35,878 bases of DNA from Flavobacteriaceae bacterium (lineage in GTDB: Bacteria > Bacteroidota > Bacteroidia > Flavobacteriales > Flavobacteriaceae). The stretch lies in contig WFXA01000170.1 in assembly GCA_015490835.1 (NCBI GenBank), forward strand, positions 1 through 35,878, read 5' to 3'. The position numbers were made by a program, and so were the translations under genes. Position 1 is the first letter of the stretch. The number at the start of each line of letters is the position of its first letter. This document shows positions 1,057 through 14,675 of the stretch, in pieces. Under the pieces are notes generated by a model. The model made no database searches. It had not been told where the DNA came from and saw only the letters and a list, made by a program, of their open reading frames with translations.

Positions 1057-2214
1057 ATGTTACAGAAAACGCTTATAGTTGTCTTAACAATAATTTCTAC
1101 ATCCATGTTTTCACAGGTAGGGATAAATACTACCACACCCAGTCCTGCTTCTGTTTTGGATATAAATAGTTCTGCTGATGGAACAAATTATGGAGGCTTT
1201 ATGATACCTCGGGTTACATTAATACAGCGAAATGCAATACCTGTAACCGCAGCCGATGATGGTTTAATGGTTTTTCTTCAGGAAGGAAATACACGTTGTG
1301 TTCAAATTTATAACGGGATAGATTTGCAATGGGAAAATGTCTATTGTATGCCGGTTAATCAGCTACCCGTTGCCAACAATGTTAGTTTTTCCGGCTCCTT
1401 AGTTCAAGGTGAAATATTAACGGCAAATTTTGTATATTCTGATGCCGAAGGAGATCTTCCCGGCTCGCATATATTTGCTTGGTATAGAGCAGATGACGCT
1501 TTAGGAACTAATCAAACTTTATTACAAACCGGTACGTCAAGCACTTTTGAACTTACTGCAACAGAGCTTAATTATTATATATCGGTAGAAATCACACCGG
1601 TAGCTCAAACAGGAGCTTCGCCCGGGATTCCTGTATTGTCATCTTATCAGGGACCTGTAAATGCTCCTTCTGCCGGAGGTGTTTTTATAAGTGAAATAGC
1701 AGATCCAGATAATAACGCTTCTGCCAGATTTATTGAGTTGTATAACGGATCTTCTAACCCCATAGATGTAAGTAATTGGCAAATTCTAATATATTTCAAT
1801 AACAATAATACGCCCGGTGGCACTTATACATTTCCTTTCGGAACCGTAATTTCAGGAAACTCTACTTATATAATCGCTCAAGATAACACCGAATTTACAA
1901 ACGTATATGGTATTGCTCCCGATGTAGCACTTGCAATATTCAATTCCAATGGTGATGATAATTTTGAATTACGCGATAATACGGGAACATTAATTGATGT
2001 TTACGGTGTACCCGGAAATGATCAAACGGGGACTTGCGGAGAGTTTGAAGATGGAAGAGCCTTACGAATTACTACAATAATTCAAGGAAATTCGGTGTGG
2101 GATGAAAGTGAGTGGATTGTTAGAGCCGATTCAACAGTTGGAGGTTGTACAGATCACGCTAATTTTCCTCAAAACGCACCTTCAGATTTTTCTGCTGGTT
2201 TGCACCCTAATTAA
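1057..2214 (+). CDS. Secreted protein with flavobacterial N-terminal module and lamin-tail domain
   Basis: 385 aa. Residues 1-19 form a signal peptide (hydrophobic stretch ending SMFSQ). Residues 20-95 (QVGINTTTPSPASVLDIN ... GFMIPRVTLIQRNAI ... DDGLMVFL) match the N-terminal module of the 307-aa protein just downstream and of the S74 fibre protein at 11397-14675. Residues about 100-205 look like a beta-sandwich domain. Residues about 208-345 resemble a lamin-tail domain (VFISEIADPDNNASARFIELYN, then NPIDVSNWQI), a fold common on exported Bacteroidetes proteins. No Por-type C-terminal sorting signal or enzyme motif is evident. It is probably an extracellular or surface protein. The next gene starts 13 bp later on the same strand, so the pair is probably cotranscribed. 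Confidence 0.75.
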   Translation: MLQKTLIVVLTIISTSMFSQVGINTTTPSPASVLDINSSADGTNYGGFMIPRVTLIQRNAIPVTAADDGLMVFLQEGNTRCVQIYNGIDLQWENVYCMPVNQLPVANNVSFSGSLVQGEILTANFVYSDAEGDLPGSHIFAWYRADDALGTNQTLLQTGTSSTFELTATELNYYISVEITPVAQTGASPGIPVLSSYQGPVNAPSAGGVFISEIADPDNNASARFIELYNGSSNPIDVSNWQILIYFNNNNTPGGTYTFPFGTVISGNSTYIIAQDNTEFTNVYGIAPDVALAIFNSNGDDNFELRDNTGTLIDVYGVPGNDQTGTCGEFEDGRALRITTIIQGNSVWDESEWIVRADSTVGGCTDHANFPQNAPSDFSAGLHPN

Positions 2215-2226
2215 TTTTTTTGAATA

Positions 2227-3150
2227 ATGTGTAGAGTATTAATAATAATTTATTTTTTTAACATAACACTTTCTGCTCAAGTAGCTGTAAATTCAACAGC
2301 AGTTCCCAGCAGTGCTGTTTTATACCTTGAGGCACAAAAGTATCCCACAACCAATTTTGGTGGGTTTTTAATGCCTATTGTAACAGAAATACAACAAGCT
2401 TCCATACCGGTTTCAACTGTAGATAATAGAGATGACGGATTGATGGTTTTTGTAAGTGACCCTTCTACCAATAAACATTGCTGGAATATTTACGATAGCC
2501 AACAGCAAACTTGGCTTGATATTTTTTGTACTAAAATTGCTTGCAACAGTAATATTTTGTATCAAGAAAATTTTACAACTTATGGCGATAATACCGGAAT
2601 TTCGGGAAGCAGTCCCTCTAACGGAAACTACCCCACAGGTGTTACAAAGTGGACACTTTCCAGTTATACTGCTATTAGAGATGGTAATACTGCCTACCCC
2701 GGTACATTGGTAGATGCTAATGATTATGCAATGGTTATCGGCGGAAAATTAGATATGAGAGATTTAAATGGACCGCTGTTGTTTGAAACTCAACCCATAA
2801 ATATTTCCGGATATAATTCGGTTGTTTTTTCTTGTGAGTTTAGTCAAACAGGAACTTTAGAATATTATCCAGGGCAACATACAGACGATTATAACTGCGG
2901 AATTGAAACACAAGGAAGCGATTATATAGATGTGCTTTATTCTACTAATGGTGGTGCTACTTTTACCGAAGTGCCTAACTTTTCGGGGTTGGGAAATGCA
3001 AATCATACATTAGTAGATGACCTTCCCGGAACGGTGAACTTTTCGGTTAGTGGACTATCCGGAAATTCTTTGGTTATTCGGATTAGATTTCAAAATTGGT
3101 CTGATGACGAACATTATTTTTTAGACAATATTCAGGTAACTTGTAATTAA
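2227..3150 (+). CDS. Secreted protein sharing the N-terminal module, with a beta-sandwich-like C-terminus
   Basis: 307 aa. A short hydrophobic signal (residues 1-17, ending LSAQ) precedes a copy of the same module as the upstream gene (AVNSTAVPSSAVLYL, GGFLMPIVTEIQQASIPV, DDGLMVFV). The second half (about 105-307) opens with ILYQENFTTYGDNTG and contains DYAMVIGGKLDMRDLNGPLLFETQPINISGY and LVIRIRFQNWSDDEHYFLDNIQVTCN. This pattern resembles jelly-roll or MAM-like adhesion domains often found on secreted Bacteroidetes proteins. The fold call is a judgement from sequence pattern only. It lies 13 bp after its module-sharing neighbour. The two genes probably arose by duplication of the N-terminus with different C-terminal domains attached. 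Confidence 0.7.
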   Translation: MCRVLIIIYFFNITLSAQVAVNSTAVPSSAVLYLEAQKYPTTNFGGFLMPIVTEIQQASIPVSTVDNRDDGLMVFVSDPSTNKHCWNIYDSQQQTWLDIFCTKIACNSNILYQENFTTYGDNTGISGSSPSNGNYPTGVTKWTLSSYTAIRDGNTAYPGTLVDANDYAMVIGGKLDMRDLNGPLLFETQPINISGYNSVVFSCEFSQTGTLEYYPGQHTDDYNCGIETQGSDYIDVLYSTNGGATFTEVPNFSGLGNANHTLVDDLPGTVNFSVSGLSGNSLVIRIRFQNWSDDEHYFLDNIQVTCN

Positions 3151-3222: not shown

Positions 3223-4251
3223 ATGAATGTATGTTTTATTATGTACCCTTGGGATGAAATGGACCCTGAGAACGATTCAACCCTAGCTATGGTTCACGAA
3301 TTTGTAAAACGAGGTCATGGTCTTGCTATTACAACGCCTGCAAATCTAACTATTAGAGACAGTGTGGCATTTGCTTTTTCGAGAGTAATTAAGCGATGTG
3401 AAAAAATACCCGGAAACTTAAAATCGTTTCATAAAAAAGCCGAATTTTATGACGAAATGCTCCCACTTGCCGGTTTTGACGTTATTATTTTACGAAGCAA
3501 TCCGCCGTTAGATATGATTATGCTAAATTTTTTAGATAGCGTAAAAGATGACGTGTTTATTATGAATGATTTAGACGGAATAAGACGTGCAAACAACAAA
3601 TTATATACAGCCGTTTTTGAAGATGAAAAAAATGAATTTATTCCTCGTACACATGTAACAAAAAACAAAGAATATCTTAAAAAAACCATAAAAGAAGGTC
3701 CAGATAAAATGATTCTCAAACCTTTGAATGGGTATGGAGGTTCCGGTGTAATACTTATTGAAAAACGAGCGATGACCAGTATTAATTCACTTTTAGATTT
3801 TTATATAGACAATAAAGACGGGACTTCAAATTATGTAATACTTCAAGAATACATTGACGGAGCAGACCAAGGTGATGTGCGTATTTTGTTGCTTAATGGC
3901 AAACCCATAGGTGCTATGAGAAGAGTACCGGGTGACGAAGATCACCGCTCTAATGTGAGCGCGGGAGGAAGTGTACAAAAACACAGCTTAACTAAAGAAG
4001 AAAAAGAATTATGCAGAAAAATAGGTCCCAAATTGGTAAAAGACGGATTGTATTTTGTAGGCATTGATGTTATTAATAACATGCTTGTGGAAGTAAATGT
4101 AATGTCTCCCGGAGGAATAACGTATATGAATAAAGTATATAAAGTTAAAATTCAAGAAAAAATAGTAGACTTTGTTGAAGATAAAGTATCTGAACGTTTA
4201 GTTGCTTTTGAAAGGAGAAAAAAATTAAGAAAATACGTAGACGAAGCCTAA
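3223..4251 (+). CDS. GshB-like ATP-grasp ligase (glutathione synthetase family)
   Basis: 342 aa, cytoplasmic. The N-terminus (VCFIMYPWDEMDPENDSTLAMVHEF) resembles the GshB opening, in which a D-S-T-F/L-A-M motif follows the first strand. The ATP-grasp core includes MILKPLNGYGGSGV (glycine-rich nucleotide loop with a lysine), VILQEYIDGADQGDVRILLLNGKPIGAMRRVPG, and a metal-binding end FVGIDVINNMLVEVNVMSPGG. Bacterial GshB joins gamma-glutamylcysteine to glycine, but no gshA is in the window. The neighbours are an FGase-like amidohydrolase and a QEGLA protein. Substrate specificity is therefore unproven: it may ligate an amino acid to some other carboxylate or peptide. Its TAA overlaps the ATG of the next gene (TAATG), implying translational coupling. 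Confidence 0.85.
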   Translation: MNVCFIMYPWDEMDPENDSTLAMVHEFVKRGHGLAITTPANLTIRDSVAFAFSRVIKRCEKIPGNLKSFHKKAEFYDEMLPLAGFDVIILRSNPPLDMIMLNFLDSVKDDVFIMNDLDGIRRANNKLYTAVFEDEKNEFIPRTHVTKNKEYLKKTIKEGPDKMILKPLNGYGGSGVILIEKRAMTSINSLLDFYIDNKDGTSNYVILQEYIDGADQGDVRILLLNGKPIGAMRRVPGDEDHRSNVSAGGSVQKHSLTKEEKELCRKIGPKLVKDGLYFVGIDVINNMLVEVNVMSPGGITYMNKVYKVKIQEKIVDFVEDKVSERLVAFERRKKLRKYVDEA

Positions 4252-5081
4252 TGGAAAAGCTAACTATATCTCAAATTTGTTCTAAAATTGAAGCAGGTCA
4301 AACTTTTAATGCCGTTGCTTCTGATTATAGTTTTACTCTAAAAATTGATGAATATGTACCCTATGTTTGCGGTGCCGTTCATGACGGACATCAATTTAGA
4401 AAAGAACTTTGGGAAAATTGCTTCCATACCGAATACGACCGTTGGTTTGAAGAAGACCCAGCTACCAAAGAAATGGTAAAAAATCATCCCATTGTTCTCG
4501 CCGGTTGTGATAGCAGATTTGAATATGACCTAAACAGACACCCCGAAAATGCCATTTATAATGATGCTTGGGGTAAAAAACTATGGAAATCACCTCTTAC
4601 AGAATCACAGAAAGAAAAAAGCTTACAGAAACATGCTAATTTTTATAAGGTAGTTAATTGTTTAATCGCTAAATTAGAGGAATTACATGGAGCCGTTGTG
4701 GTTTATGATATGCATTCTTATAATTGGAAACGATGGGATAGGGAAGTGCCGGTAATAAACTTAGGAACAAAAAATATAGATAATCATCGTTATGGTGATA
4801 TGGTAGAAAATTGGAGAGCTTCCCTTTCTCTATTACAATTACCATATAATATTAAAGCTACTTCTAAAATTAACGATACCTTTCAAGGTAACGGTTATTT
4901 TTTAAAACACATTACACAGCATTTTGGGTACACGCTAGTTTTAGCAACCGAATTTAAAAAAATATACTGTGATGAGTTAAACCAAATAATTTTTCCGGAA
5001 GTAGTAGATGCTATTGAAAAACAATTACAAGAAAAAATAAAACAACATGCAACGTTGTTTTACCAAACTCATAAAAAATAA
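4251..5081 (+). CDS. N-formylglutamate amidohydrolase-like hydrolase (FGase family)
   Basis: 276 aa, no signal peptide. FGase-family features are visible: an N-terminal VCGAVHDGHQF segment where the family usually has a PHxG-like motif, CDSRFEYDLNRHPENAIYNDAWGKKLW (equivalent to the family's SRxxxDLNRxPE), and VVYDMHSYN with the conserved D-H pair. Classical HutG-type FGases remove formate from N-formylglutamate in histidine degradation. No other hut gene is nearby, and the gene is locked between an ATP-grasp ligase (1-base TAATG overlap) and the QEGLA protein (1-base gap). I infer that it cleaves an amide bond in a product of this operon rather than serving histidine catabolism. Confidence 0.82.
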   Translation: MEKLTISQICSKIEAGQTFNAVASDYSFTLKIDEYVPYVCGAVHDGHQFRKELWENCFHTEYDRWFEEDPATKEMVKNHPIVLAGCDSRFEYDLNRHPENAIYNDAWGKKLWKSPLTESQKEKSLQKHANFYKVVNCLIAKLEELHGAVVVYDMHSYNWKRWDREVPVINLGTKNIDNHRYGDMVENWRASLSLLQLPYNIKATSKINDTFQGNGYFLKHITQHFGYTLVLATEFKKIYCDELNQIIFPEVVDAIEKQLQEKIKQHATLFYQTHKK

Positions 5082-5082
5082 G

Positions 5083-6246
5083 ATGACTTTCCCCGAAACT
5101 ATTATAGATACTTTCCCTAATCTTTTTAAAGTAGATCAAACTTTAGACAGATTAGTTAAAAAAATAGAACTGCTTAATTTTGTTAACCCTATTAATATTG
5201 AACAAGAAAAACAACGTTTTTTTGCGTCTAAATACAATACAAATCCAAATTTTAACTACAGAAAACTAAACTTTAACCCGCATAAACTTCAACAAAAGTT
5301 ATTTAAACAAAAAATTCACAAAATTGAAGATGCAGAAACAGCATCTTTTTATAAAGAAGTTATCTATGATTATTCGGGTTTAATACAATGTATTGAAACC
5401 ATAGGTCAAGGGCGAAAATTTTATTACAATGTGTTAAAATGTTTTGGTACACCTACACAAAAAGATGTAGAGAATGCTCGGTTTATTCTTCATTTTAAAG
5501 ATGAAGAATTTGACCAAGAAATGACACCGGTTTTTAATGCACAAGAAGCTCAAAAATATTTTGTAGAATTTTCAAAACGGTATAATTTTCCTTTTAATTT
5601 AAAACTTTCCAGTAAAACAACGGCTGCTGCCATGGTGCAAAACAGTACCCAAAAAATGTTGTTAAAAAAGAAACACTTGTTTAGTGCTAATCAACTCAAA
5701 GTTTTAGCCAATCATGAAATAGGAGTTCATCTGGTAACCACTTTTAACGGATTGATTCAACCCTTAAAAATATTCCATAATGGGTTTCCTAAAAATGTAG
5801 AAACGCAAGAGGGCTTGGCAGTTTTTAGTGAGTATATGAGTGGTTGTTTAACGCTTTGGCGTTTAAAAGAATTGTCCTACAGGGTTTTAGCTGCCGATTC
5901 GTTACATAAAGGCAATAATTTTTGCGATACATTCGATTTGCTTCACGTGCAGTACAAATTAAATAGAGATGAAGCTTTTAATATTACACTTCGCGCTCAC
6001 AGAGGAGGAGGGTTTACAAAGGATTATAAATATCTTACAGGGTTAAAAAAAGTATACGATTATTATAAAAAAGGAAATGATTTAAATCTTCTCCTTTCCG
6101 GAAAAGTTACCATTGAAGATATACCAATTATCACCAAATGGAAAAATGAAAATCTTGCTACCGATATTGTGTATAAAAATTATGCTTTCGATAAAAATGA
6201 AAATAACAATAAAACAATCGATTTTATTTTAGATAACTTAAAATAA
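5083..6246 (+). CDS. QEGLA-motif protein (DUF1704/TIGR02421), probable metallopeptidase
   Basis: 387 aa from the ATG at 5083. The ORF-track start at 5047 lies inside the upstream gene; 5083 leaves a one-base gap after its TAA. The name-giving QEGLA is at about residues 242-246. About 25 residues before it is NHEIGVH, with H211, E212 and H216. HExxxH plus the glutamate of QEGLA matches the zinc-binding layout reported for the eukaryotic tubulin tyrosine carboxypeptidase MATCAP, which belongs to the same domain family. Database entries call bacterial members 'flavohemoglobin expression-modulating', a weak label. A zinc-dependent carboxypeptidase role is inferred from motif layout. As third gene of the ATP-grasp/FGase operon it may remove a residue that the ligase adds. 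Confidence 0.85.
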   Translation: MTFPETIIDTFPNLFKVDQTLDRLVKKIELLNFVNPINIEQEKQRFFASKYNTNPNFNYRKLNFNPHKLQQKLFKQKIHKIEDAETASFYKEVIYDYSGLIQCIETIGQGRKFYYNVLKCFGTPTQKDVENARFILHFKDEEFDQEMTPVFNAQEAQKYFVEFSKRYNFPFNLKLSSKTTAAAMVQNSTQKMLLKKKHLFSANQLKVLANHEIGVHLVTTFNGLIQPLKIFHNGFPKNVETQEGLAVFSEYMSGCLTLWRLKELSYRVLAADSLHKGNNFCDTFDLLHVQYKLNRDEAFNITLRAHRGGGFTKDYKYLTGLKKVYDYYKKGNDLNLLLSGKVTIEDIPIITKWKNENLATDIVYKNYAFDKNENNNKTIDFILDNLK

Positions 6247-6368: not shown

Positions 6369-7436
6369 ATGCAAAAAAGAACCAAACTAATTATAGTTTT
6401 ATTACTTCCCATTCAAATAATAGGATTAAGAGTACTAAGAAATTTCCCCGAATTTATCGAGAACTATTACAGCAACGGGTTGTACCCAATTCTATCAAAA
6501 ACTGCTCGGTATTTGTTTGGTTGGGTTCCGTTTTCGGTAGGAGATATTTTTTATTTATTACTTGGAGTTACTGCGTTGCGTTGGGTGTACAAAAATTTTT
6601 CAAGAATAAAAACGAAACCCGCCGGCTTTTTTTTAGATATTGCTGCAGCATTATCGGTAATTTATTTTATGTTTAACATACTTTGGGGATTTAATTATTA
6701 CAGATTACCGTTATATAAATCGCTTCATCTTGATACACAATATACGACTGAAGAATTGATACAAACCACCAAACGGTTTATTGCAAAATCAAACGAAATG
6801 CATCGCCAATTAGGCTATCCGGACAGTGTGAAAATTGATCTTCCGTATTCGCAAAAAGAAATTATGGAACGCTCGATTAACGGTTATAAAAACCTGGAAA
6901 AAATACATCCTTTTTTCTCGTATTCGCCGGCAAGTATTAAAAAAAGCACTTGGAGTTTGTTGCTTACGTATATGGGATATAGTGGTTATTACAATCCTTT
7001 TTCGGGAGAAGCACAAGTAAACAGTTTAATAAAAAATTATAAGTTTCCGGTGGTGAGTTGTCATGAACAAGCCCATCAAATAGGTTATGCAGCAGAGAAT
7101 GAAGCAAATTTTATAGCTACTTTGGCTACGCTTCAAAACGATGATAATTTTATTAAGTACTCGGGTTATATATTTGCATTGCGTTATTTAGTAAATGAAA
7201 TAGCTCGTAGAGATCGCGATAAATACGAAGAATTACTTACTACAATAAATCCCGGTATTCTTGCCAGTTATAAAGAAATGCGTGATTTTTGGAAAAGTTA
7301 CGCAAATCCCTTCGAAAATATTTCGAAAGCTTTTTGGGATACTTTTTTAAAAGCCAACAACCAATCTAAAGGACTTATGAGTTATAGTTATATGGTAGCC
7401 CTAGTGGTTAATTATTATGAAGATAAACCTTTGTAA
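6369..7436 (+). CDS. DUF3810 membrane protein with HExxH zincin motif
   Basis: 355 aa. The N-terminal half has hydrophobic segments (KLIIVLLLPIQIIGL; VGDIFYLLLGVTAL; GFFLDIAAALSVIYFMFNIL), followed by WGFNYYRLPLY and a soluble domain. That domain contains SCHEQAHQIGYAAENEANFIATL: an HExxH with a downstream E typical of gluzincin-type metallopeptidases. This arrangement is characteristic of DUF3810, a family widespread in Bacteroidetes with no established substrate. It is probably an inner-membrane peptidase. A TATGTTTG box lies at 6357-6364, but only 4 bases before the ATG, too close to be a conventional promoter for this start. It is convergent with the SRPBCC gene, with a 13-bp gap. Confidence 0.85.
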   Translation: MQKRTKLIIVLLLPIQIIGLRVLRNFPEFIENYYSNGLYPILSKTARYLFGWVPFSVGDIFYLLLGVTALRWVYKNFSRIKTKPAGFFLDIAAALSVIYFMFNILWGFNYYRLPLYKSLHLDTQYTTEELIQTTKRFIAKSNEMHRQLGYPDSVKIDLPYSQKEIMERSINGYKNLEKIHPFFSYSPASIKKSTWSLLLTYMGYSGYYNPFSGEAQVNSLIKNYKFPVVSCHEQAHQIGYAAENEANFIATLATLQNDDNFIKYSGYIFALRYLVNEIARRDRDKYEELLTTINPGILASYKEMRDFWKSYANPFENISKAFWDTFLKANNQSKGLMSYSYMVALVVNYYEDKPL

Positions 7437-11396: not shown

Positions 11397-14300
11397 TTAG
11401 TTTTTAGCAGAAAAATCAGGGTTTACATTTAAACCATTTACTTTTTCTTGTAGTGAATTTATTTTGGCTTCTAAGCTTTCAAATTTTGAGAGTTCTTTTT
11501 TAAGTCGGGCAATTTCTTTTTCTTGATTTTGATTTTTTTCAGAAAGGTTTTTTACTTGCTTGTTTAATTCTTTAATGGCTTCTACAAAGATTGGATCATA
11601 ATCGCCATAAGCAGTTTGGTAATACCCCAATTTATCTTTAGAAACTTTTGAAGGAAACACCTCCTTTAATTCTTGGGCAATAAAACCGTATTGAATATCG
11701 GTAGGTCTTTTAATTCCGGTTTTGTCATCATTCCATAAATAAGTAACTCCGCGCATTTTATTTATTTTATTTAATGCTTCTTTTCCGCTAATACTAAGTA
11801 TCTCTTTTTTTAAACGTCGGTCACTATTTGCAATCCAAGAGCCGGCAGTACTTTTTGATGCTTGCCCATTCACTTCAAAAGGATTGGTAGTTGGGGTTCT
11901 CAAAATTCCTACTTTACCATCTCCTGTGGCTACTACAATATTTCCTGTTGCTGAGTTGTAAATATTAAAACGGCTATCGGTATTGGTATTATCAGCTCTT
12001 CCGAATAATACCCAATTGTTGTTGGTTTCAGAAGTATTGGTAAATTTTATTCTGGCACCATCATTGGCTTGGGCTTCTTCTAACTCTAACTGTGCAAGGG
12101 TACCGGTACTGTTTCGTTTTACTTCTAATGAGGCAGAAGGTGTGGTGGTACCAATACCCAATCTTCCGGTATCGGTTAGCGTCATATAATTGGAGCCTTC
12201 ATGTCTAAAATCCAGTCTGCCTGCACCCACATTATTGATATAGCCATTTGCCCCACCGTGACCTAATTCTACTTTATTCACTTCAGAAGCATCTGAAGCA
12301 GCAGAAATGATACCGGCAACTGCTAATTTAGAATCTGGCGTGGAAGTGCCAATCCCCACATTATCTGCAAAGTAGTTAGCAGTACCACCAAATCCCCAAC
12401 TAAAATACGTACCGTTGTACCATAATGCTTCAGCACCATTTACACGCAAAGCAGGACCTGAAGCGATTCCTTCGTTTAGATTGGTTACTCCCGCAACAGA
12501 GAGTCTGTAATTTGGACTGGATGTGTTGATACCTACCCGATTTGAAAAATAGGAGTTGCCTACAAAATAACCTGCAAAACCATTTGCTGATTGAACCGTT
12601 GAGTGAATACCATAATTAGAAGTCCCTGTGGCAGGGGTTAAATTTACCCGTACGCCGTATTTTGTTTGGTTTCCGGTGGTATTCATATCTACATCTAATC
12701 CATAGATTGTGCCTGTTGTGTTAGCTCCAAATACAGCTTCGTAGGCTTTTCTTTCACCTGTGTTTCCAGTAGAATTCATTTCTACATAGTGTCCTCGTAT
12801 GTCGCCACCAGCAAATTCTTCAAAAATAGAAAAGGAGCCGTATTTTGTGTTATTTGAGGAATTTCTAAAACGGTTATACATACCGTATTGAGTATTGGTA
12901 TAAGTGTTTAACGTGTTAAAATCATTATATACACCGTACAATAAACCTTGAGCACTAGCAGCGTAAGTATTTAACATTCCGTATTGGGATATTCCTGTTG
13001 GGCTCACCGGGAATGTATTTTTAATACCGATTCGATTCCCATCTGCAGTTCCTGAATTTGGTAGGAAATTATTTACTCCAATTTTTTCACCATTACCAGT
13101 AGTATTAATATTGTTATTTAATCCGGTTATAATCCCTGAACTTGAACCGGACAAATCAATATGTATCCCTCTTGACTGCCCTGATCCTGAGCTGTTTTTA
13201 ATCAAATTTATACCATAGGTTAAGACTGAAGTATTATCTGTTTTAGATATATTTACGGCACGTGTGGTACTTCTAGTTTCATCTATATCTAAAGCGTAAT
13301 CTGCTGTGTTTTTACCTATTGCAACATTGCCTTGTGTAAATATATCATCTGTTATTGCGCTTGGTGCAGCGGTTGTTCCTTCAGCAAACCAATCTGCGTC
13401 TTGTAGTGAAGACAAATCTACAGTTTGAGCTACTACACCATCGTTTTCTACTTCAAGGGTAAGCACGTTTGTACCCGCATTAAAACTAAAGGTATCTATG
13501 GTTTGGTCGTCTGTACCTAGAGTTGTTGGGTCTACAAAACTTAATTGTCCAGCCCCATCGGTTGTCATTACTTGGTTGGCGGTACCGTCTGCTGCCGGCA
13601 TTAGGTACCTGTTAGTGGTAGTGTTTCCAAGAGATGTTCGACCTGTAAAATAAGCTGCATATCCGTTTGCTACATCTTCAACAGAGGTTCTAACACCATA
13701 GTCAGGTCCTCCTCCAGTACCCGTTAAATTTGCATAAAATCCATATCTGATGCCCGTGCCAGAATATAAACTCGCATAATAACCATACAGACTACCAGAT
13801 CCACCTCCTAACCTTGTATATGCACCATAAAGCTGATTACTCGATGCTGCAGATATATCATTATGAATCCCGTAAAATGTACCGTAAATTGGAGATGAAA
13901 TTGGGTTAGGGATAGCATTTCTTAGACCGTATTTTGTTCCTGTTGAAGTGGAATTAAAGTAGTTATATAATCCAGTTTTAGTGTTGGAATTATCATTTCC
14001 GAAAGATGTAGCAAAACCTCTTTGATCTGATGCTCCTGTACCAGCAAGGTTTGCATAAAAAGCTGTTTGAGTATTTGAACCTGTTCCAAAAAAAGAAGAA
14101 TTTATACCCAAAATATTAGTTGATGTGCTAGATGTTGTAATATCGGAATCTATATTTTTGTAAGTATAAATGTTATTGACATCAACAGTTTTAGAAACTT
14201 TTATTCCTCCACTAATATCACTTGGGCTAGTTATTGTCATTTTTCCTGTATTTACATTAACATCTCCGGTATTAACTCCGAGATTACCGTTATTAACAAA

Positions 14301-14675
14301 TACATTACCTTCTGTAAAAATATTGTCACTAATGGCATTTGGAACAGAGGTGGTTCCAAATTTATACCAATCTGCATCTGCACTATTAAGTGCCAACCAA
14401 CTGGTTGTTGTATTATCCCAATAATAAAATCCGGGTGGATTACTTCCGGAAGTGGTGGTTAAATACACCATCATCCCTTGTTGATCTGCTCCGGGATTGG
14501 TTACCGGAAAGGCATCAACACGCGGGATTAAGATACCATCGGTATTTGCCGGTGTAGCAGGATTGGAAACGGTGATGTCTAAACTTGCTTTTGGGCTGGT
14601 ATTGTTGATGCCAACCTGTGCATATCCTGTGATACTTAAAAAGGAAATAACGAGTGCTATAATTTGGTTTTTCAT
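11397..14675 (-). CDS. Giant secreted fibre protein with C-terminal peptidase S74 chaperone domain
   Basis: 1092 aa. Signal peptide 1-19 (ends TGYAQ), then the module QVGINNTSPKASLDI ... GILIPRVDAFPV ... GMMVYL shared with the genes at 1057 and 2227. Two long repeat blocks follow, each opening with a copy of ADW(Y/F)..GTT..P.AI(S/T)D(N/D)IFT(E/Q)GNV and each carrying a YG motif about every 20-25 residues (KYGLRN, LYGAYTR, LYGYYASL, RYGFYANL). Residues about 950-1030 form an S74 intramolecular chaperone domain: SDRRLKKEI with the presumed cleavage serine at S951, then YGFIAQELKEVFPSKV. The C-terminus is coiled coil. S74 domains assemble trimeric phage tail spikes and then cut themselves off; here the fibre is probably an exported surface trimer. 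No phage structural genes are nearby. Confidence 0.88.
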   Translation of the reverse strand: MKNQIIALVISFLSITGYAQVGINNTSPKASLDITVSNPATPANTDGILIPRVDAFPVTNPGADQQGMMVYLTTTSGSNPPGFYYWDNTTTSWLALNSADADWYKFGTTSVPNAISDNIFTEGNVFVNNGNLGVNTGDVNVNTGKMTITSPSDISGGIKVSKTVDVNNIYTYKNIDSDITTSSTSTNILGINSSFFGTGSNTQTAFYANLAGTGASDQRGFATSFGNDNSNTKTGLYNYFNSTSTGTKYGLRNAIPNPISSPIYGTFYGIHNDISAASSNQLYGAYTRLGGGSGSLYGYYASLYSGTGIRYGFYANLTGTGGGPDYGVRTSVEDVANGYAAYFTGRTSLGNTTTNRYLMPAADGTANQVMTTDGAGQLSFVDPTTLGTDDQTIDTFSFNAGTNVLTLEVENDGVVAQTVDLSSLQDADWFAEGTTAAPSAITDDIFTQGNVAIGKNTADYALDIDETRSTTRAVNISKTDNTSVLTYGINLIKNSSGSGQSRGIHIDLSGSSSGIITGLNNNINTTGNGEKIGVNNFLPNSGTADGNRIGIKNTFPVSPTGISQYGMLNTYAASAQGLLYGVYNDFNTLNTYTNTQYGMYNRFRNSSNNTKYGSFSIFEEFAGGDIRGHYVEMNSTGNTGERKAYEAVFGANTTGTIYGLDVDMNTTGNQTKYGVRVNLTPATGTSNYGIHSTVQSANGFAGYFVGNSYFSNRVGINTSSPNYRLSVAGVTNLNEGIASGPALRVNGAEALWYNGTYFSWGFGGTANYFADNVGIGTSTPDSKLAVAGIISAASDASEVNKVELGHGGANGYINNVGAGRLDFRHEGSNYMTLTDTGRLGIGTTTPSASLEVKRNSTGTLAQLELEEAQANDGARIKFTNTSETNNNWVLFGRADNTNTDSRFNIYNSATGNIVVATGDGKVGILRTPTTNPFEVNGQASKSTAGSWIANSDRRLKKEILSISGKEALNKINKMRGVTYLWNDDKTGIKRPTDIQYGFIAQELKEVFPSKVSKDKLGYYQTAYGDYDPIFVEAIKELNKQVKNLSEKNQNQEKEIARLKKELSKFESLEAKINSLQEKVNGLNVNPDFSAKN

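Follow-up and report, generated by a model that had tools for sequence, protein, structure and literature searches.

What common task could keep an amide-forming ligase, an amidohydrolase-like protein and a putative metallopeptidase next to one another? The question is raised by a contig (WFXA01000170.1) of a marine Flavobacteriaceae bacterium, of which the whole stretch analysed, 35,878 nucleotides long, is called here the window. We conclude that the three proteins almost certainly form one functional unit. Our preferred reading, held at about even confidence, is that this unit makes and remodels a small metabolite, peptide-like and amide-linked, that is not glutathione.

Organisation of the locus

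All three genes lie on the + strand. GSHB (3223-4251, an ORF of 342 aa) encodes an ATP-grasp amide ligase of the GshB-like subfamily PRK12458, here termed type 1. It is followed by FGASE (4251-5081, 276 aa ORF), a metal hydrolase that resembles N-formylglutamate amidohydrolase and is not HutG, and by MATCAP, or QEGLA protein (5083-6246, 387 aa), a putative metallopeptidase. Read directly from the sequence, GSHB and FGASE overlap in a TAATG at 4249-4253, and one base separates the TAA of FGASE (5079-5081) from the ATG of MATCAP at 5083. This layout, together with the three gene families, had been given in a preliminary description made from the letters and the ORF list; the sequence and the profile matches presented below agree with it. 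MATCAP has an alternative in-frame ATG at 5047, which would give 399 aa and make it overlap FGASE. In relatives, the commonest junction between these two genes is a four-base overlap. Scans for promoters and terminators returned signal no better than chance.

Conservation and layouts

A scan of bacterial genomes, with genes called by profiles, yielded 80 loci, nearly all of them from Flavobacteriaceae. The order GSHB-FGASE-MATCAP on one strand is intact in 72, and two further loci keep the same order, one with FGASE split into two frames and the other cut by a contig end. MATCAP is alone in the remaining six. This grouping is far beyond chance. The survey across genomes that had been proposed for the trio therefore finds the unit kept, and the earlier statement that the genes act together is borne out by the kept order, by gene fusions and by the co-induction of two neighbours in one transcriptome.

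MATCAP is uncommon in the phylum, being present in 17 of 297 sampled Bacteroidota genomes. A GSHB-family ligase adjoins it in 16 of these 17, and FGASE is adjoining or fused in 13. When the survey starts from the ligase, MATCAP adjoins it in all 17 assessable genomes with a strong PRK12458-family member; an eighteenth stops at a contig edge and so falls outside this count.

As for the layouts, in type 1 GSHB is followed either by FGASE and MATCAP, as in the window, or by an FGASE::MATCAP fusion. Such fusions were found in Bacteroidota (L052, L065, L066, L067, L070), Photobacterium (L155, L197) and Vibrio (L152), the last with no ligase adjoining. In type 2, FGASE precedes a MATCAP of 610-690 aa, which is followed by a second ligase, about 29% identical. 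Type 2 occurs in Bacteroidota and rhizobia (L153, L154, L156, L198, L199). The extra N-terminal domain of the type-2 MATCAP aligns full-length to FGASE in a single HHalign comparison (97.1%, E 1.5e-10) and lacks the catalytic residues of FGASE; judged by this alignment, it appears to be a degenerate FGASE domain. In both layouts, then, MATCAP is coupled to an FGASE domain, whether catalytically active or not. In two genomes (L053, L054) both ligases surround one FGASE and one type-2 MATCAP. Pseudoalteromonas and Legionella have stand-alone MATCAPs, as does one flavobacterium-related genome.

A candidate MATCAP::GSHB fusion (L061) was rejected as a wrong-frame ORF, and an apparent loss of the trio (L150) as an artefact of ORF picking, the trio being there. 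In terms of viral carriage, no relatives were found in viral contigs, and phage records gave one partial match.

The component families are known and their arrangement is visible in public annotation. No paper describing the trio as a system was found in the literature searched. The survey of ATP-grasp amidoligase gene neighbourhoods by Iyer et al. 2009 reportedly includes clusters of a similar kind, with a non-ribosomal amide ligase beside unrelated peptidases, and may already list the trio.

MATCAP without its partners

The six genomes with MATCAP only belong to Arenibacter (three genomes), Flagellimonas hadalis, Maribacter flavus and Croceivirga radicis. Whole-genome searches found in them no PRK12458-level ligase and no FGASE. 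They occupy at least four separate places in the topology of a MATCAP FastTree, each beside trio-bearing relatives, and the active-site residues of MATCAP are intact in all six. Among the 80 loci, GSHB and FGASE are lost jointly, never one alone. We infer from these losses that the ligase and FGASE are a pair of no use apart; one deletion spanning two adjacent genes is simpler than two losses, so that joint loss alone is moderate evidence. MATCAP, as the six genomes suggest, would have a role without either partner, which weakens any strict cycle of addition and removal.

Domains and predicted structures

In the profile search, GSHB contains the Pfam domains GSH-S_N and GSH-S_ATP and matches NCBIfam PRK12458 at 449 bits (cut-off 408). 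With the GshB equivalog models it scores 286.1 for PRK05246 (cut-off 272) and 238.6 for TIGR01380 (cut-off 299.05). The nearest solved structure is E. coli GshB (1gsa, E 2.7e-38), and in the structure-database comparison GSHB is closer to this small-molecule enzyme than to RimK. Both GSH-S domains and the ATP-grasp residues are common to GSHB and E. coli GshB. In contrast to the E. coli enzyme, to which their mean identity is about 32%, type-1 ligases have SPGG in place of SPTC; the trio ligase also adjoins MATCAP in every assessable genome, and trio genomes are mostly without gshA.

FGASE matches the Pfam family FGase (53.6 bits, cut-off 28.9) and fails the HutG equivalog TIGR02017 (20.3 bits, cut-off 278.75). 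A PDB search with its sequence found no meaningful match, the similarity being visible only by fold search. There, the predicted structure (pLDDT 95.4) matches 2q7s (E 5e-12, TM 0.73), with the fold of N-formylglutamate amidohydrolase, near the M14 carboxypeptidases. Residues invariant in the alignment of relatives include H44, D93, N95, R96, D153, H155 and E234. With HutG (2q7s, 2odf) FGASE shares the fold (TM about 0.7), the FGase Pfam domain and metal-site-like residues. It differs in having 16% identity, an extra N-terminal segment and a place outside any hut operon, as well as in its fusion to MATCAP in other genomes. As modelled, FGASE has the fold of a small-substrate N-acyl-amino-acid hydrolase, and would be superfluous to an analogy with tyrosination.

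MATCAP matches PF08014 at 326 bits (cut-off 27), covering positions 1-363 of the 365 in the profile. The match to TIGR02421 (QEGLA) is full-length, at 304 bits, below the cut-off of 338.65. Its motifs are HEIGVH (211-216) and QEGLA (242-246), with H211, H216 and E243 as candidate metal ligands and E212 as candidate catalytic residue. None of the four varies among 19 divergent relatives or among 84 close ones from the flavobacterial group. The five best PDB matches of the predicted structure (pLDDT 93.5) are all human MATCAP, with probability 1.00 and TM 0.48-0.60, the best being 7z5g (E 1.3e-8); M32 carboxypeptidases are among the next. The MATCAP-like HExxxH...QEGLA site reported in the preliminary description is thus confirmed by membership of PF08014 and by the invariant residues, and modelling against MATCAP, which it had suggested, returns the human protein as best match.

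Human MATCAP/TMCP1 (KIAA0895L) shares with the bacterial protein the PF08014 domain, the HExxxH motif and the EG glutamate; equivalents of R304, R307, K313, D314 and Y317 are also common to both in a phmmer alignment. Bacterial MATCAP, about 21% identical to the human protein when the two structures are aligned (TM 0.5-0.6), differs in lying within, or being fused into, an amide-metabolism operon. The human enzyme trims tubulin C-termini, and protein tails are the substrates of the known relatives of MATCAP (PMC10499314). TIGR02421 bears the name “flavohemoglobin expression-modulating QEGLA motif protein” and has the same motif and length as MATCAP; no functional test behind this name was found in the literature searched.

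Expression in Photobacterium damselae

The sole expression evidence found comes from Photobacterium damselae, where the genes A0J47_RS17020 (GshB) and A0J47_RS17025 (QEGLA motif protein) are up 38.4-fold and 27.5-fold, respectively, at 1% versus 3% NaCl (PMC10308900). A RimK-annotated ATP-grasp ligase of this species shows a 52-fold induction at low salt (PMC10308900). The pair is very likely a type-1 unit, given the consecutive locus tags and a ligase directly before the fusion in two other Photobacterium species. By analogy with the same two species, the QEGLA gene of P. damselae would be an FGASE::MATCAP fusion. Low salt is therefore a suggested condition under which the product of the trio may appear.

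Proposed function and alternatives

In the reading that we prefer, GSHB would activate a carboxylate with ATP and couple it with an amino group, and FGASE would cut an N-acyl or amide bond in the same compound or in a precursor. MATCAP, a putative metal carboxypeptidase, would remove a C-terminal residue, and might also use another substrate without GSHB and FGASE. We infer the small peptide-like substrate, the order of the steps and any role in salinity. A small substrate is indicated by the fold of FGASE and by the closeness of GSHB to a small-molecule ligase. Against it, MATCAP occurs without its partners in some lineages, so that the ligase product may not be its substrate, and the solved relatives of MATCAP cut protein tails, not small peptides.

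These relatives keep alive, as an unlikely explanation, the cycle on a peptide or protein tail put forward in the preliminary description. GSHB would add a C-terminal amino acid and MATCAP remove it, in parallel with tubulin tyrosination, while FGASE would edit or supply the amino acid. The ATP-grasp relative RimK does put Glu on a protein tail, and homology to the tubulin-trimming human MATCAP/TMCP1, with the HExxxH...E site kept, points the same way (PMC10499314). Of this proposal, the unit and the MATCAP family stand. The dependence of the carboxypeptidase on the ligase, expected of a cycle of the tyrosine ligase/carboxypeptidase type, does not, since an intact MATCAP is kept without ligase and FGASE in six genomes at four or more places in the tree. 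Furthermore, GSHB is nearer to GshB than to RimK, FGASE has no necessary part, and no candidate target protein accompanies the trio. The more specific idea of a salinity-regulated bacterial addition and trimming of a protein C-terminal tail by MATCAP and a GshB-type ligase, parallel to the tubulin code, seems quite improbable. Salvage has a small chance of being correct: MATCAP and FGASE would degrade peptides or N-acyl-amino acids and the ligase would re-use the product, with no dedicated metabolite. This fits a set in which hydrolases outnumber the ligase 2:1, as well as the FGASE::MATCAP fusion and the ability of MATCAP to occur alone. It fits poorly with an ATP-consuming ligase beside the hydrolases in 16 of the 17 sampled MATCAP genomes, and with the ligase being the more strongly induced neighbour in P. 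damselae.

Glutathione and histidine degradation had both been dismissed earlier as reasons for the grouping, and both dismissals are supported. GSHB could be a true glutathione synthetase, with FGASE and MATCAP processing glutathione degradation products: PRK12458 is named glutathione synthetase, the PRK05246 cut-off is exceeded, mean identity to E. coli GshB is about 32%, and a GCS2-family gene occurs in 9 of the 24 trio genomes. However, neither gshA family, GCS2 or Glu_cys_ligase, was found in the genome of the window (93.96% complete), and both are missing from 14 of 23 other trio genomes (15 of 24 with our own), among which several are assembled as one contig with a completeness of 95% or more. 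The TIGR01380 score is also under its cut-off, and SPGG replaces SPTC. Ordinary glutathione synthesis is thus unlikely, and synthesis or repair of glutathione by the whole trio is very doubtful. For histidine degradation, hutH was found in every one of the 12 trio genomes tested, our own included, and formimidoylglutamase passes its cut-off in only three of the 12, which would leave the last step vacant in the rest for FGASE to fill as HutG. On the other hand, hutF, the maker of N-formylglutamate, is absent from 10 of the 12, again with our own among them, and above the cut-off in one. The hutH copy of our genome (622 bits) lies on another contig (C81), apart from the trio, and FGASE, with a HutG score far under the cut-off, is fused to MATCAP elsewhere and lost together with GSHB. 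FGASE is therefore unlikely to be an ordinary HutG, and an incidental clustering of the HutG of histidine degradation with the other two genes is highly improbable. The earlier statement that hut genes are lacking is correct for the window and incorrect for the genome, where hutH is there, hutF being absent.

Annotation and neighbouring genes

Current annotation gives each gene of the trio a label of its own (glutathione synthetase, N-formylglutamate amidohydrolase and “flavohemoglobin expression-modulating” protein), and the present evidence does not back these labels as a pathway. Bacterial members of the MATCAP family gain a genomic context, and S. meliloti, Dokdonia and Photobacterium are convenient organisms for work on the trio. 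S. meliloti 1021 has the type-2 layout, on pSymB, whereas Dokdonia and Aquimarina have type 1.

Two neighbours were rejected as parts of the system. In many genomes an SDF symporter gene precedes the ligase by 9-20 bp, yet it is found in 58 of 61 family genomes, also occurs without the trio, and in our genome lies beside aroC on another contig. In the Winogradskyella group (L174, L184-L189 and others), a rhodanese-like gene, which likewise occurs without the trio, separates the ligase from FGASE; it also adjoins the symporter at loci that have no trio.

Downstream in the window, a gene at 6369-7436 (+ strand) encodes a DUF3810 protein with HEQAH, similar to HExxH, and a downstream AENEAN, possibly a second zinc peptidase; it was not found beside the trio in relatives. 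Proteins of secreted type flank the trio (1057-3150 and 11397-14675), one of them with a lamin tail domain, and a fragment of an IS-type transposase is present at 520-831 on the - strand. Lastly, immediately before the locus in Vibrio (L152, annotated as such) and in Photobacterium (L155 and L197, by sequence resemblance) there is a MaoP/DUF413 gene on the same strand, whose product in L155 has an acidic C-terminal end.
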